Below, one piece after another: positions 27,337-58,700 of a DNA stretch of 64,000 nucleotides. The DNA comes from Aquila chrysaetos chrysaetos (taxonomy: Eukaryota; Chordata; Aves; Accipitriformes; Accipitridae): contig NC_044014.1 of the NCBI RefSeq assembly GCF_900496995.4, forward strand, positions 10,139,001 to 10,203,000, in the 5' to 3' direction. Below the pieces are notes generated by a model. The model ran no database searches. It had not been told where the DNA came from and saw nothing but the letters and a program-made list of their open reading frames with translations. How positions within the stretch are numbered: position 1 is the first letter of the stretch; each line of letters starts with the position of its first letter. Both the position numbers and the translations under genes were made by a program.

Positions 27337-30300
27337 CTTACAGGGAAGAGATCAGAAAGTACATGGCGTTATTTTTCCTCTTTTTTCTTATTATCTTGTG
27401 CTGAAGAATAGAATGGCAGAGAGATATGTACTAATTTGCGTGAAAGATTCTGAGCAAAGAGTAACTGCACACACAGAAAGTTTAATTCTTATCATTTGTG
27501 TCATATATCCTACTTCATTAAAGTGGAGAATAATGTGTATTAACTCTCCAGACCTCACACTACTCAAGTACCATTCTGCATTTGGGAAAGTGCAAGAAGA
27601 AAGATTTCATGTTTTTCCTCTCTAAGAGTAAGTCTTGTGCTCTAACTGTTCCTCTTCCTGCCTTCATCACATATTCAACATACTCAGTGAACTAGGATAT
27701 GGAAGGGCAGGATTCCCAGAAAATAGTAATGCCTTTGCAACCTGTAATGTCTGTGTCTTCTCACCTGCCAAATCTGGGCTTTCTTCTGTTTCCGCTATAG
27801 CTAGTGTAAAAGGGGTGGATACAACACACTGGCCCAACATGCAGCGGGCCTTAGTGTTTTGTCCATCAGTGTACAACGTATCATCAATAAGCGTCAGTCT
27901 ACAATCAAGTCAATATGAGTGATAAATTTTTAGGCTTCTATCCCCACCCTGACTCCCTTTTCTTTACCTGGCACTGTGGAATATGCAAACAGAAAATCTG
28001 CTTCTACTGGGATTTTGTATCTCGGATTGGCATCTGTTTCCAGAGTGTCATTTGCAGGTCCAGAGTCAGTTTGTATACCTTCATCAAATTCAGAGCCTCT
28101 GCATGCCTGAAAGCAGTGAAGACAAAGAGAACTTGTCCAATAAGGAGAAACGGTGTTATAAAAATAAATATTAATTAACATTTTTTAATGGGTACAGTTT
28201 AAGCAATACTGTGCATGTATTAGAAGCAGAAATGCAATTCTGGGAGACATCTAATTTTCAGTGATAAAGTTACTAGCTTACCCATTTTAAAATATACATC
28301 CCGTACAGTAAAGGGAGTTAATGGTGTTGCAGGCTGTGGATCTCAGTGGATTGTCAAAGTGCCAAGTCAGCATTAGCTTATTCTAACCATGATTAATTTT
28401 ACTAGTCTAGAGTCATCCTCAGCACTCCATTATTACATAATGTCTTTTGCAGTGTGACTTCTGGACATTTTCTTTACAGGCGACTACACATTGTCTTTGG
28501 TTCCTGACATGCACTGCTGTAGCACCACATTTCACAGAGTAACAAAATCACATCCCGAGACCATCTAGTCCAATCCCCCTTCTCAAGCAAGAACAGCTAC
28601 AGCAGATGTTCAGGACCATGTCCAGCTGGGTTTCGAATATCTCCACAGACGGAGACTCTACAGTCTGGGCAACCTGTTCCAGTGTTTGACCACCCATTTC
28701 AATCATATTGCATTTTTAACATTTTTCCATTTCTCTCTTTTATTCTTAATTTCCTCTTAATCACGTGGTTTAGCTAAAGGGCACACTGGAAACACAGTCC
28801 AGGTTGGTAAGTTTCAGCTCTCGATCAGTAGCTTTGACTGACAGCTTTTGCAAAAAAATAGCAGTCTGATGGGCTTATATATCACGAGTTGGTTGCCTTT
28901 CTTAAGATAACTTTAAAGGCAAAAAAGTACCCATTCCAAACCTACAATTAAAAGAAACATCACTTTAGTAGTATCAAGAGCCTAAAATAGACACAGTTTT
29001 CACTTTGAGGTTGAGGATTAATTGATGGAACAACCTAGGGAAAACCACATCTGCTGCAACTCCCATATATACATAACACTATGATAAAAAAAGTGCAATT
29101 CAGACCCATGGTATGTCAGTTAATACTGTTTGAAACAGCTGTCTTTAAAAGCTTAAGTAATATACAATTAATTATATGCTAATGCAATAATGCAATATAA
29201 ATTTTTAGGCTACTGAGGGAGAGAGAAAATATTTCGTTTAGCAGAATGCAGTGATTTGTAGAGATAGCCTTTATTCAAACAGGCCTGGACAGTCCTCAGC
29301 TCTGTCTGCACAAGAGGGAGTTTATCTTTCTGCTTTGAAGTTCATATATTACCAAGCATAAAGAGAAACTATGTACAAAATTACAATGACAATATGTTCT
29401 TTACATCTGTGAATCTTGTGTATAAATTATCTTTTAAAAACAAACAATACAAGTCACCCATACTCAACTTCTCTCAACACATTTTTTCACAAAACCTCCA
29501 GCAAAGTTCAGTAAGTTAACCTACAGGGCTCTTCTAGAGCAGACAACCAACATAGCATGTTTTCCTCACTGCAGCAGTAGGATATTATATTTACCTTAGG
29601 GCTATTACCTGAATGAAAAATAATTTGGGTTTGCCTATAAGGCTTTTACACTTGTCTCCTCTGAATAGCGCAGTCAAACTCTTGATAGCCATAGGTCCAT
29701 CAGTGCCATAGATGAGGCCTTCCTCCCCATGGCTTAGAAGGATACAGGCAAAACAAGCAGCATCACTGTGATTCTCCTCAGCAGCTACAAATCAAATATG
29801 TCTTAGCCAAAAGGAAGCAACATTTTAAATTAAAATTATATTTAGCAAACACAGTTTTCTGAGACTACATATACATTGGGCCTGTACTGGAAGGCATAAG
29901 AAGGAGTGGATAAAGATGACACAACCCACTTTTTAGTAATGTGGTGAGTACCTTGAATACATGAATGCATCCTTCACTTGACTCCGAGTCTAGCCCACAG
30001 GAGTCAACAGGCTGGACTCTTTATCTAATATGACAAGGCTCTTCACCTAATACACAGGACAGGTACTTCACCTAATATGACAAGAAAACTGTATTTCTGA
30101 ATTAATGTTGGTAGAAGATGTGGGGAATTAAGCCTAATCCATTCAGAAACTTAATCCTTCTATACAGAAAACTGTATGTAGTGGGGCCTAAGCAATCTGC
30201 TCTAATTTGACCTGCTTTGAGCAGGGGATAGATTTGGTGACTTCTAGAGGTCTGTTCCACTCTAAATTATTCTATGATTCTAAATTTTTACCTTGCTTCA

Positions 30301-48839: not shown

Positions 48840-49860
48840 CCGCCCTGGTGACCTTGCCCTGCGGCCACCCGGCCACCAGCACCACCCCGGCCGGCGTCCG
48901 GGTCACTGACTGGCGTTTTTGAGCTCCCCGAGAGTAACCCCAGGTCCCGAAAGCTGGGTTCTAGATTCGGCTTTGACAAACAAATACATCTTTTTTAAAA
49001 ACATAAGGATCGGAGGGCGCGCAGGCCTCAGGTAGGCAGTCAGGCGGCCGAGGAGGAGCGCGGAGCGGGGGGGGGCCGCCTCAGGGAAGCAGCCCCACGC
49101 CAAGGAAGACGCAGCCCCGAGCGGAGGAATCCAGCACCCCCGACGCTACCAACTACACGCACCGCAAGCCCCGCTGCGAGGACTTCTGCCCTCGCTCGGG
49201 ACACGGCTGCGTAGCCAGGGCAGCCACCCGAAGGGCCGCCCAAGCATCCCGCGCTGAGGGAGAGCCGCTTCCTTCCACCCCTCTGCCGCGGGCGTCAGGT
49301 AAGGGCAGCGGGCCGGGCCCGCGGGGCGCGGGGGGGACAGGAGGAAAAGGCGCGGGGGAGCGGGAAGGCGGCGGCCGGCTGAGGGGAGGGCGGGAGGCGG
49401 GAAGGGAGCGGAGCGGAACGGGCTTCCCTGAGGCGAGCAGGGAGGGCGGCCGGCGCGACGCGACGCGAAGCGGAGGAGCAGGGTGCTGGGAAGGGGCCGG
49501 GACCGCGGCCGGGGCTTGCCTTGGCGCTGGGGTCCGGCGAGGCAGAAGCGAAAACGAAAGCGAAAGCGGGCGGGGTGTGTGCCCCGCCGGCCGGCAGCGG
49601 GGCGGGAAGGGACGGGACGGGACGGGCTCCGCCGGCCGGGTCCTGTCCCGGCGGGGCCGCGCCTTCCGCCCCGCTGCGGCGGGACTGCGGGCCCGTCCCC
49701 CGGGGCGGGGGCGGCCTCGGCCTCTGCCTTCGCCCGGTGAGGCGGCGGTGGGGCGGGTGCAGGGTTCGGGGAGGCGAGGGCTCCTCCCGCCCCGCTGCCC
49801 AGCCGGGCCCCCCTGGCTGAGGGGCTTGGGTGCTGCCCCCGGGCCCTCCTCGCTTCCCTG
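48840..49860. promoter_or_regulatory. CASP7: CpG island, probable CASP7 promoter
   Basis: About 1 kb of very GC- and CpG-rich sequence standing out from AT-rich flanks, with GC boxes (GGGGCGGGG near 49700) and repeated GGGACGGGAC near 49605-49625. It lies upstream of CASP7's first coding exon and is the only CpG island in the window, so it is the natural CASP7 promoter. I could not fix exon 1 or its donor. A good donor in the opposite direction (GCGTCAG|GTAAGG, plus strand, cut after 49297) hints at divergent transcription. Confidence 0.8.
49550..49567 (+). promoter_or_regulatory. IRF/ISRE-type element (three GAAA units)
   Basis: GAAAACGAAAGCGAAAGC: three GAAA cores at 6-bp spacing. GAAAGCGAAAGC matches the IRF element consensus G(A)AAA(G/C)(T/C)GAAA(G/C)(T/C). 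It sits inside the probable CASP7 promoter island. That it binds IRF proteins is inference from the motif. Confidence 0.65.
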
Positions 49861-52800
49861 GTGATGACGGCTTCCTCACAGCAGAAAGGAAATTACCGCT
49901 TCTTAATAGCTGTGCTCCGTCACACCCCCGCGAAAGAAGAGCCTTAAGTTTCATGGTGACACGAGACTGTCTAGATCTAAGGCAATATTTTCCCTTATAT
50001 AAACTTCAGTGGCGCTTCCTTATCTGTCCAATTATTCAGTGTGTTGCATCTCTGCTAATTACGATATCCTACTGTGTAGCCGTTGCATCAGGCCCAGCAG
50101 TCCAGTACACGGACTGAAGACTGGCACGGTCTTGCTAATTACTCCTGGATGCGGGCTCCAATCCTGCAAAATCATACACCTACCCAGCAGTGCGTGGTGT
50201 TTAACATTCACTACCTGAAGAGATTTACATCAAAGCGACATTTTTCAGTGTAACTGCCTCGTAATTGGCACAAAACACAGGCATGGTAACAAACAGCCTT
50301 TTGCTTCACGACAGGTCACTGCTTCAATGTGATGGAGGAGCATCTGAACGGCGCAGCGGCTCTTGCCGTGTGTCTGCATGCTGCTGCTGGGGCCGGTCTC
50401 TGCTTCGTGGGATTATGCCTGTAGCTCCTGGTTGGATACGTAGCCAAAGTTTTCTCCTGAAAATCAAACTAACAGAATCCCATGGTTCCTCTCATGCCAT
50501 CTGTTAGCTGCTTCTTTTCAAGAAGACAGCACCACTTCTAAATCCATAATGGATCATTATGGACAACAGAGACGCTGGAAATGTATAGATCTTCAAGTAA
50601 ATGCGTGTAGAGGAGATGAGGGAGACTGTGCCATCACCAGCAATGACTGGCAGTGGCACCTGAACTTCAGCAAACCCAAATGTGCTTTCCTGATGATGTG
50701 TATGGGGGGTTATCTAGGAAATCCAGAAGCTATTTGCCAGCTGTGACCTTCTATATCTTGATGAAAATGTTTATCCATTGCCATCTGGCCCTCACAGCAG
50801 AATTAGCAGACATAGAAATGGCTTTTTTCTAAAAGTCATTGTATTGCTATTGAAAAAGTGATACTGTATCTGATAATGCTTGCCAATTTTAAAGAGTTTG
50901 CTAACAGAATTGTGTATGGGGAATTTCTGACTCAAACTGTTGATGAACCCCCTATTTCTATCTTCTTTTCAGGTTGGTTGCTGGCATTTACAAAGAGAAA
51001 GGTTGATTCCTCCATATGCTGCAATACTTTTCTTAACTACATGTTAGATTAACCAATTTTAATGCAGTGTGAGGTGCTAGATTTTTCAGAAAATCTTGCT
51101 TGTTTTCAGTAATGAGTAAGGGAGAAATTAAAAAGATAGTAGAAGGAAGTATCTTGCTTCAGGGCACGGAGTGATTGCTATCTGGGGAAGGGTCAGGAAG
51201 GAAAAAATTTCTCATGTATAACATTGCACAGCTGGCCATATGCGTTACTGGGCAGGGGGAAGAGCCAGCAATGTGATACCTATAGCATCAGTATTCCTTT
51301 TCTTATCCCTAGAGACTCACTCTACTCCCTAAAAACATTAATAATGAAGCCTTTGACTGGATATTTGCATTGTAGAAAATAAGTTTTTAACTACCACGTA
51401 AGCAGCTGCAGGATGACAATGGAGCGTGCCTTTGGGAAATTGAAAGGTAGATGGCAGGTACAAACTAGAAGGCTTGAGGCAACTAAATAGTACCTGTCTG
51501 GAATAATAACTGTGTGCTGTGTTCTGCACAACATCTGTGAAAGAAAGGATGGGGCTTTGCTGAGACCTGGGAGGCATGTGTGGGGATACTTTGAGGATGG
51601 AGGATTTGAGCAACTCGCAAGGTGTTCCCTTCTCAATGACAGTTGTTAGAATTTTGTATATTTTGCAAGAAAGGATGGATGGTTTTGATATGCTGTGGGG
51701 AATATGGGGGCTGTGCAGTGTGATTTGGCACACCACAGTTTTATGAAATTCAGTAAAATAATGCGTCTCAGTTTGGTGTATATGTTTGTGTGGGATTTCT
51801 CTAATCAAGGAGAGGTGATCTGTTGCACATGCCATGTTTTACAAGTTTTAAAATTGAGTCTTTTTTAGGTTCTAATACATGATAAATGGACATCGACACT
51901 GAAGGTCTCATTGTATGCACGTGGGCTATGCTGTGCATGCTTTGCACGCATTTCTTCAAGCTTTCAGCTTAAATTGTAGCACATCCTCACCATTTCTTTC
52001 TCTGCTCTGTAACAGTGATGCGTTCTTGGTCTGTTGGTTCTTTTTTCCATTCCTCTCTACTCCCTCTCTCACTTTCTTTTGCTCTGTTAGAAGCACTTGC
52101 GAAATCTCCACACCCTCAAGTTTTCCTGACACTAGCAACAAAGGGAAAGCGTAAGCACAAATCCTTTTAGTCATGAAATGTAAACAGTTGTTGGTTGGTT
52201 TCCAAAACAGCAAAAATGTAAAAAGCTACTGTACAAGTTTGGAAGGCAGTCCCTTAGAGTTTTTTCTTCAAGTCTTGGGAGATCCTGGTGTTGATAAGTC
52301 TTTTCCAGCTTTCTTTCAATATTTTTGAAAGCTGGATTTGCAACTATGCTAAATTTGATTAGCATGGCAAGGATATATGAGGCAAAAGGCCCTGAGACCA
52401 GGTAACTAATTAACCACGTAGTTCAGAGAAGGTTATGATGAGGCTGGCCTAGTGTTTGAACGTTTACAGGCAGCTTTTAGCAGTGGATAACACCCCCAGT
52501 TTGTGTAATGAAACAGAAGCTTTTTTTTTTTAGCAAACAGAGGGAAGATAGGGTTGCTATAATTTGTGGTATCTGGCTTCCTGCTAGTCATGTGGCTGGA
52601 AGGGCACAGCCACTATTCAGGAGTGACAGAGAAGGTGGCCCTGACTTGAATGTCTGTTAAGAGGTTACTTTGTGTAACTAATGTGTGCTTTTAAAATTCA
52701 GATTCAGGATGCAGACATGCCCTGTTTTCTATGCAGCTAATTCAATGAATTTAAGGAGGTTGGAGAGGTAACAATGTTTCTTCCTGCTAATTTGCACTTT

Positions 52801-55468: not shown

Positions 55469-55657
55469 ACTTTGAAACAGAAGGTCAGCAAACGGAGCAA
55501 CAGACTTCAATTCAGAGCTTTAATGGGAGCCATTGACCACAGCAAAAGGCCTTGACTGGAGTGTCTAGAGTGTGCTTTGCACAGGCCAAAAAGTCACTTT
55601 CATACTCTTTGAACCTTTTGTATAAACCTATATATTTTTCACTCTGTGGATTTCAAG

Positions 55658-55729
55658 ATGAATGTGCAGCCGTGTGCTAGATGTGGCTATGGGGTTTACC
55701 CTGCTGAGAAGATTAACTGTATAGATCAG
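55658..55729 (+). CDS. NRAP: NRAP exon 1 (LIM domain, first zinc pair)
   Basis: 72 nt from ATG (A at -3) to CAG|GTCAGT, phase 0. It encodes [18 protein letters not shown] with ligands C6 and C9. Confidence 0.97.
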
Positions 55730-58700
55730 GTCAGTTCTCTTTCTTTATTATTTTGGACTATAATAAATGTACAGATTGGCACTTTTAACACAGTGCAAAT
55801 CTCTTGGTTCTAAAAATTCTTTACTCATAAGTGGGTTCAGAACTGAAATGAGTTAATAATAGGCATATATTTGAAGAAGAATTTTTCAAATTCATGAAGT
55901 GAATGTTAAGGATCAATATTGAGATTTAAAAATCAACAGAGTAATAATGAAATACAAATCATGTCTGTTTGGTTTCTGTTTTGTGGTATTTCCAGACATG
56001 GCATAAAGCCTGTTTTCACTGCGAAGTATGCAAGATGATGTTAACAGTAAACAACTTTGTTAGTCATGAGAAAAAGCCTTACTGTCAAGCGTAAGTGTGT
56101 TTCCTTTTCTTTTTTTTAAAGCAAAGGTTTAAAATGCCAAATCATTTTAATGTAATAGAAGATCACCATTTGGACTCAGCCTGGTTCCATGTGTGATGTG
56201 AAATTATGTATTGTTAGTGCCTTCATGCATATCTTTGGGATATACAAATGATGGGAAACTCTTGTTACTGTATATAAAGCTTCCTCATTTGTCCAGTGTG
56301 TTAAAAGATACCAAATTAAGTTCCATTTCAGTATTGTGGGAAGAAAATAAACCAAACCATAAAATTCAGTGCTTTCCAAATCTGCGGTTAAGAGTTAACA
56401 AGGTTGAGCTAATCATCAGGAAAATGTATAAAATGCAGATTTTGGAGTTGGTTTGTTCTAGGAAGTTTTTATTTTATAATGATCAATTCCTGTCAAATTT
56501 GTCAGCAGAAAAAGGAGAGATGACAGTTGTTTTTTATTCTATTATTCTCTTTTGTTATTAGAAACACAGCATTGATATGACTATCATTAAAATTAATTTT
56601 GCTCTAGGCACCTACTCCATACAATAATAACTTGAATATAATCTGAAATCTGTGTGTGAGTCAGGGAAAAGTTATGTATGGAGGGGTGGAAGCTGGTATT
56701 GTGTTTTTGAGTGCTCACAGAGAACCTTTCTGGTGGGCTGTCTCGTACATTCCTAATATACTTTCACACTTTCTTTTTTTAGGCATAATCCAAAAACCAA
56801 TGCGTTCACAAGTGTATTTGAGACACCAATAAATATGAATGCAAAAAAACTGTCGAAAGTGGTAAGTGAGGTAAGAAGCTGAAGGGCCAAATGTATTTAG
56901 CTTTGTTTTACATTTTGATACCATATTTGTGTCTTGTTTTGGAAATAAATATGTATTCTTTACTTACCTTCCTGTGTTCTTTTAGAGCAGTAGGATCTCA
57001 GCCTGGGTTTGAATCATAATTTTTAAAATGCATTCACTCATGAGTAAGAAAGGTTAGATCTGAATTTGCTTCTATTTTCAGAAAGAAAAATGGATAGCAG
57101 TTTCTCACCTGCCATATCTGTTAATCTACATGGAAGCATTGTTCGCATAAACTGCCCAGAGCTATGTAAACTTAGTAACTAAATCAGGGGGGTTTACACA
57201 GCCATTGGGAACAAGAATGACCTACTTGCTCTATGATCTCTTCTGAAACAGATACTAAAGGGCACGAAACAAAAAATAAATTCTGTCTCAGTGGGACGCA
57301 GGCAAAAGTTCTCATAAATACTTTGTCAAGTATTTCTGGCAAACCTGAGATGACAAAACACGAAGTCCAGGGAGTTTTGCATGGTTATACCGAAAACGTT
57401 TTGCTAACGCGTTCAGCATGGACTAGCTTTCCATGCCCTTTTAACTGCATCAATCCTCTAAAAGGCTGCTGTGCCCCGGCAAACCTCTAGGGGTGCTCAA
57501 AGTCTTCTTTCTTTTCAAATGTCATTCTTTTCTGTCTTGCATTGTTTTTCTCCAGATACATTTGTTTCAAACTTGCATTTCTAAGAATTTTATGAAACGA
57601 GAAATACAGAAACAGCTAATAATTGATAGCTATCTCACGTCTATGTGTAATGCTATTTTCTTGACTGTCATGTCTTTTAATACTCTAAAATAGTACTATT
57701 CATTGCGTGACTATATTTAGTAGGCAAACCAATGTGTTTTGATGTGATTAGCCATCATTAAAATAAAATAAGAAAGTTGTATTTCTTAGATTATAGCACG
57801 CTAAATTCGTTCTGATGTTCTGTATTAGCTGTACAAAATTGATGTACATTAATAGCCTTTATCAGACGCTGTAACTTTTATCATTCTTGTACAGTATTCT
57901 TATATATCAGTTTTTGCAACATCATGGGCAGTAACTATTTCAGCAGTGACTATCACACTTACTTTAAACTGTGTGTGACAGATCTGGTCAGGAATGAGTT
58001 TGGGATTATGGCAGGTTCTATTTCTGTTTTTAGGCAGTGATATGAGACTCTGATACTTCCAGTGCATGTGAATATACACGCCAGACAAATTATAGCTCAA
58101 AGATCACTTTCCCTTGTTTTTTACACCTAAAGCACCTTCTGTCCTTTTCAATCACATAATGAGGTTCTGCTCCAGAGAGAAAATTGCTAAGGGTAGTAAA
58201 GAAGCTGATTCTGCAGTACTTACTTAAAGGGAATACTTCTGTAGAAATTTTGAGTGCAGGAAAATTTTGCATTGGTAACTGTAGAAAATAATGCTAACTT
58301 GGGAAAAGGTTTCACTTGCTACTGTAGCAATTTAAATTGAATTGTTGGGTTTTTTTAAGTAAGAATATTTCTTATGCAGAAAATGTAACATCTTTCTTCA
58401 ATCCTAACATGATGTTCTCACATAAGTCTTATGTTGAGACACCAACTTGAATGCAGAGATAAAAATTCAGCTCACTCCCTCTACACAGAATTTCTATGTG
58501 AGCAGACGAATCATTCAAATGTCTGTACCTCTGTACTTAATTTATAAAATGGGAATAATGGTATACCTGCTCAGTGATTTTTCTGTCCAGTCAGTTTAGA
58601 TTTTGCACTCTTCAGGACAGGGACTGTTATTTTTTGCATTTTAGAATGAGTTGTATAGCAGAGCTGTGATTTCATTTGAACTTCTGTATCCTGTCATGAT

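Follow-up and report, generated by a model that had tools for sequence, protein, structure and literature searches.

A decayed PIF/Harbinger transposase fragment between CASP7 and a presumed NRAP gene in an eagle genome

The intergenic space between CASP7 and a gene taken to be NRAP in the eagle genome contains a fragment that is homologous to PIF/Harbinger transposases, is interrupted by two stops, has no recognisable transposase sequence upstream and has many similarly decayed relatives elsewhere in the genome. The favoured reading, held at a probability of roughly 0.85, is that the fragment is a long-dead, truncated copy of a PIF/Harbinger element that is ancient and has drifted without function between the two genes. 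The element would have inserted by the usual cut-and-paste mechanism in a remote ancestor, which probably lived before the living bird orders diverged. Functionless drift since that time would have left the C-terminal part of the DDE transposase as the one portion that can still be recognised. The sequence analysed, referred to here as the window, is a stretch of 64,000 nucleotides corresponding to positions 10139001-10203000 of contig C11 of the same genome.

Reading frame and homology

A preliminary description of this DNA had proposed a Harbinger transposase fossil at 51287-51649 on the + strand, and the proposal is confirmed: the region reads in a single frame with two stops, TAA and TAG, before the terminal stop, and the motifs ERAFGKLKGRW and CCVLHNICERK can both be read in it. 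A translated search for similarity to PIF/Harbinger was positive and supports that origin. When 51287-51649 was translated through both stops, with X at each stop, the product matched the Pfam family DDE_Tnp_4 (PF13359) at 2.9e-11 and 43.7 bits, relative to a curated cut-off of 24.8, over profile positions 99-158 of 158. By itself, the segment of 35 codons that the two stops enclose matches the same profile at 2.1e-5 and 24.6 bits, slightly below the cut-off. A frameshift-aware alignment of positions 50200-52200 with the C12 protein (the product of an open Harbinger-type frame of 411 codons, located on contig C12 of this eagle genome) gave a score of 126 over 51299-51570, compared with a mean of 35.5 and a maximum of 48 in 60 dinucleotide shuffles. 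The next best of 62 tile-strands scored 52, the tiling covering window positions 1-62200 with the last 1.8 kb outside it. The Pfam match, together with an alignment score far above the shuffles and the rest of the tiled window, establishes that the homology is real.

The intact reading frame that characterises a domesticated Harbinger gene is absent from the fossil, which carries two internal stops. No Rfam family matched anywhere in the window at the gathering score, a search of viral contigs for relatives of the fossil gave 13 pattern matches of which none was confirmed, and nothing in phage records matched the fossil at E<=1. Five matches to solved structures, of albumin and iridoid synthase, with E of 0.53-0.98, were taken as chance.

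Extent of the fragment

The surviving portion, at about 51299-51646, amounts to approximately the last quarter of a PIF/Harbinger transposase, at its C-terminal end, and comprises the following parts:

51299..51646, + strand: C-terminal PIF/Harbinger (DDE_Tnp_4) transposase fossil (PF13359; C12 alignment over 51299-51570; tail from weak siblings)
51311..51352, + strand: remnant of the block preceding the last catalytic residue, RDSLYSLKTLIMKP against GDATYPLQDWILKP in the C12 protein (C12 alignment)
51380..51382, + strand: in-frame stop TAA (frame reading)
51422..51424, + strand: codon GAG, the third catalytic acid E, inside RMTMERAFGKLKGRW (Pfam and C12 alignment)
51488..51490, + strand: in-frame stop TAG (frame reading)
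51515..51547, + strand: CCVLHNICERK motif, near the C-terminal end of DDE_Tnp_4 (frame reading and Pfam)

In the C12 alignment homology starts near 51299, that is, after the frame start at 51287. The glutamate encoded at 51422-51424 is presumed, from knowledge of the family, to be the third acid of the DDE triad. Support for the tail to 51646 comes only from L036 (E 0.012) and L042 (E 0.26), both weak sibling copies, whose endings resemble the F(E/R)Q...SLQND-like end of the fossil; a hand count puts the length of L036 one codon apart. The frame had also been described as free of indels; this is firm over about 51299-51556 and no more than likely beyond, because the C12 alignment favours a frameshift near 51557.

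The 5′ half of a transposase is not recognisable upstream, where the best alignment scores 34 relative to a maximum of 41 in 40 shuffles. As nothing upstream exceeds the shuffle level, the regions expected to contain the first and second catalytic D are either missing or unrecognisable, and the part of the DDE triad that can be read in the fragment is the E block. An upstream extension in the same frame (51143-51298, where the frame is open) had been suggested by a by-eye resemblance and was dropped, the alignment there being at shuffle level; the piece 51143-51382 alone has no Pfam match at E<=10. A search for terminal inverted repeats found 14 near-palindromic 14-mer matches in flanking positions within 1 kb (overlapping matches scored separately) as against 0-20 in 20 Markov controls, none of them prominent. 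Since the ends of the element could not be placed, a 3-bp (TWA) target-site duplication is unassignable.

On the opposite strand, positions 51341-51838 (-) form an open frame of 166 codons that is the longest in the window outside the CpG island and has no Pfam match at E<=1. A frame of this length is uncommon at the local composition (1 of 300), though not for the window outside the CpG island (5 of 40). Because part of this frame is codon-for-codon antisense to the fossil, it was rejected as a gene and is read as a by-product of the fossil.

Genomic setting

The fossil lies in a head-to-head intergenic space, about 1.3 kb from a CpG-rich block at 49001-50000 and about 4 kb before the presumed start codon of NRAP. 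On one side, a caspase-7 exon at 27933-28184 (-) matches Peptidase_C14 at 2.5e-8, and its best matches among solved structures are to caspase-7 (1.2e-20). On the other side, two + strand exons at 55613-55810 and 55951-56091 resemble the start of a LIM protein; the second matches LIM at 8.6e-8 and the first, taken alone, matches nothing. The gene to which these two exons belong is assumed to be NRAP. When the genome was searched for members of the nebulin repeat family, with 150 of 202 candidates scored, 14 places were found, all on contig C6 and none in the window, so that the identity of NRAP is not confirmed by this search. CASP7 is a cell-death gene and NRAP is a gene of striated muscle.

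Relatives in the same genome

Used as a DNA query, 51200-51700 found two places, namely the fossil itself and a frame-broken stretch on contig C3 (L002), whose alignment to the query spans 162 columns at 69% identity and opens two gaps. The upstream flank (50001-51290) matched itself alone in the genome at E<=0.001, in a search that skips very common words. Searching the genome with the PF13359 profile at E<=1 gave 18 places: one on C12 (the 411-codon open frame), two on C2 that belong to a single gene, presumably HARBI1, two on C107, the fossil, and 12 other pieces. Among the 13 fragmentary pieces the fossil has the highest Pfam score. Used as a query at E<=1, the fossil protein returned 24 places: 21 partial copies elsewhere (five of them at E<=0.001 and 13 at E<=0.01), the C12 frame, the HARBI1-like exon and the fossil itself. 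Five pieces are shared by the two lists (12 from the profile and 21 from the protein), giving 28 distinct other fragmentary places; the weakest of the partial copies may be chance matches, though the E-values are per genome. By E-value the best sibling is on C19, with two stops and 50% identity over query residues 23-86, and the best protein match other than the fossil itself is C12, at 7.6e-10. At the protein level the fossil shares 33% identity with C12 and 31% with the HARBI1-like gene. The fossil thus belongs to a group of a few dozen comparably decayed remnants within the genome, which makes it largely ordinary.

Several other Harbinger-type sequences were observed in the course of these searches. 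The C12 locus (L003, C12:5586288-5589779, -) is a 411-codon open frame that is strongly GC-rich, with a GC3 of 0.91, and is distinct from the HARBI1-like gene. It keeps the first D (GALDSLHI) and E (SVIENAF) blocks, and because the second D is apparently replaced by N (GSMENSAV), it looks like a domesticated gene that does not transpose. A further Harbinger-like gene lies on a small contig (L006 and L008, C107:101645-105769, -), with two open frames of 236 and 293 codons. Its first D reads G (GLVGGMHV) and its E block reads VLRRTLALL, and so it seems to be catalytically dead, whether as a pseudogene or as a domesticated gene. Another group of decayed pieces (L009, L012, L013, L016 and L017) covers the part of the transposase in which the first two catalytic residues lie and apparently represents another Harbinger clade. 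Four of the five carry PGSCHDSF-like motifs; DNA identity among those four is 69-84% in five of the six pairs, over stretches of 45-142 bp. The open frames on C12 and C107 may be more useful leads than the fossil.

Harbinger remains in birds and other amniotes

It had been suggested that PIF/Harbinger remains are unusual in birds. This is overstated, given the many decayed pieces in the same genome and the Tourist/Harbinger counts in published bird repeat tables. The repeat table for the spotted owl gives 9,255 Tourist/Harbinger copies totalling 958,360 bp (PMC5629816), that for the sand martin (a swallow) gives 4,830 copies totalling 473,252 bp (PMC13365828), and a table covering five genomes gives 0.03-0.04% (PMC5941490). 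From these tables it is evident that annotation of bird genomes routinely includes short Harbinger-class pieces. HARBI1 is listed as present in birds (PMC3424704), and an account of eight falcons reports no open reading frames of DNA transposons (PMC9214253). Among the literature matches listed, judged by title or abstract, nothing dealt with Harbinger transposase fossils in a bird.

Across amniotes, PIF/Harbinger protein fossils have been described, the repeat UCON84 is classed as PIF/Harbinger, and fossils of 206 and 180 bp are recorded in human near ZEB2 and MTX2; the patchy presence of PIF/Harbinger in tetrapods is explained by ancient loss of activity (PMC9004415). The word 'chicken' is absent from the main text of that paper. 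Another paper likewise names crocodilians, turtles and fish (PMC9179366).

Age and decay

Decay was gauged with a block alignment of the fossil and 15 of the 21 partial copies, in which rows had been trimmed by eye beforehand and the other six copies (L026, L030, L032, L037, L040 and L044), together with the DNA relative L002, were omitted by eye. Compared with the leave-one-out majority, the fossil has an identity of 0.787 and the 15 siblings have identities of 0.546-0.782; this measure favours the fossil because the siblings were found with the fossil as query. By the Jukes-Cantor formula, worked by hand, the difference of 21% from the sibling majority amounts to about 0.25 substitutions per site. 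At a neutral rate in birds of roughly 2e-9 per site per year, the age of the fossil would be of the order of 100 million years; this figure is rough and probably an underestimate, since the count was restricted to sites that had a clear majority. The suggestion of a relatively young decay finds no support, as a distance of 21% from the sibling majority makes such an age unlikely.

Simulated neutral decay of 115 codons at K of 0.2-0.3 gave a mean of 2.0-2.7 stops, and 51-68% of the runs had no more than two; the two stops observed are therefore ordinary. Zero frameshifts occurred in about 0.1-7% of neutral runs at K of 0.2-0.25, in a simulation that used assumed indel rates. The absence of frameshifts is a weak hint at constraint, weakened further because copies come to notice when they are legible and because the tail is uncertain.

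Alternative explanations

Two findings count against inert decay, namely that the fossil is the best preserved fragmentary copy and that zero frameshifts are rare under neutrality. Exaptation of the fossil as a non-coding element that regulates NRAP or CASP7 in cis, with selection keeping the sequence legible, would draw on both findings, the frameshift-free stretch extending over about 258 bp by the C12 alignment and the simulation. It would also draw on the location between two presumed promoters and on the precedent of anciently conserved PIF/Harbinger protein fossils recorded in human and other vertebrates (PMC9004415). The number of stops equals the neutral expectation, and the finding of legible copies itself selects for few frameshifts; exaptation in this sense is unlikely. 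Still more doubtful is the specific proposal that the fossil was co-opted as a regulatory element in the shared upstream region of CASP7 and NRAP and has been held by selection across birds, which would explain both its top legibility among the fragmentary copies and its lack of a clear frameshift. If it were true that the best preserved copies are conserved regulatory DNA, the importance of the fossil would be greater.

Instead of being a transposon copy, the fossil might derive from a domesticated Harbinger gene, as a retrocopy or a broken duplicate of HARBI1 or of the C12 gene: open Harbinger frames do exist in the genome, and C12 gives the best non-self protein match by E-value. This is very improbable, because neither gene is among the DNA matches, both stand at the low protein identities given above (33% and 31%), and broken copies are closer by identity, with L023 at 50% in protein and L002 at 69% in DNA. 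A pseudogene of either gene was rejected on these identities. A chance resemblance within a long open stretch has a negligible probability: runs of at least 168 codons with two stops occur in some frame in 79 of 300 Markov sequences of local composition, making such a run unremarkable by itself and leaving homology as what counts, and chance is refuted by the Pfam value of 2.9e-11 and by the score of 126 against a shuffle maximum of 48.

A long-dead, truncated copy that has drifted without function is accordingly the preferred reading. Taken alone, such a fossil is of little importance, and its value lies in documenting that very old remnants of Harbinger transposases are thinly scattered over this genome. 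These scattered pieces fit a history in which tetrapod ancestors had Harbinger transposons whose activity was later lost in individual lineages.

Comparison with known systems

The fossil resembles PIF/Harbinger (Tourist/Harbinger) elements in its significant DDE_Tnp_4 match and in the correct order of its blocks, with the block of the third catalytic E followed by the CCVLHN block. It differs from a full element in retaining roughly the last quarter of the transposase, in having two stops and in having no terminal inverted repeats or target duplication that can be placed. The gene on C2, presumably HARBI1, and the frame on C12 belong to the same domain family as the fossil, whereas both are open frames to which the fossil is only 31-33% identical in protein. 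The amniote PIF/Harbinger fossils were dated by alignment between species, whereas the age of the eagle fossil comes from siblings in the same genome alone; like those fossils, it is a short, old piece of transposase left in a host genome (PMC9004415).
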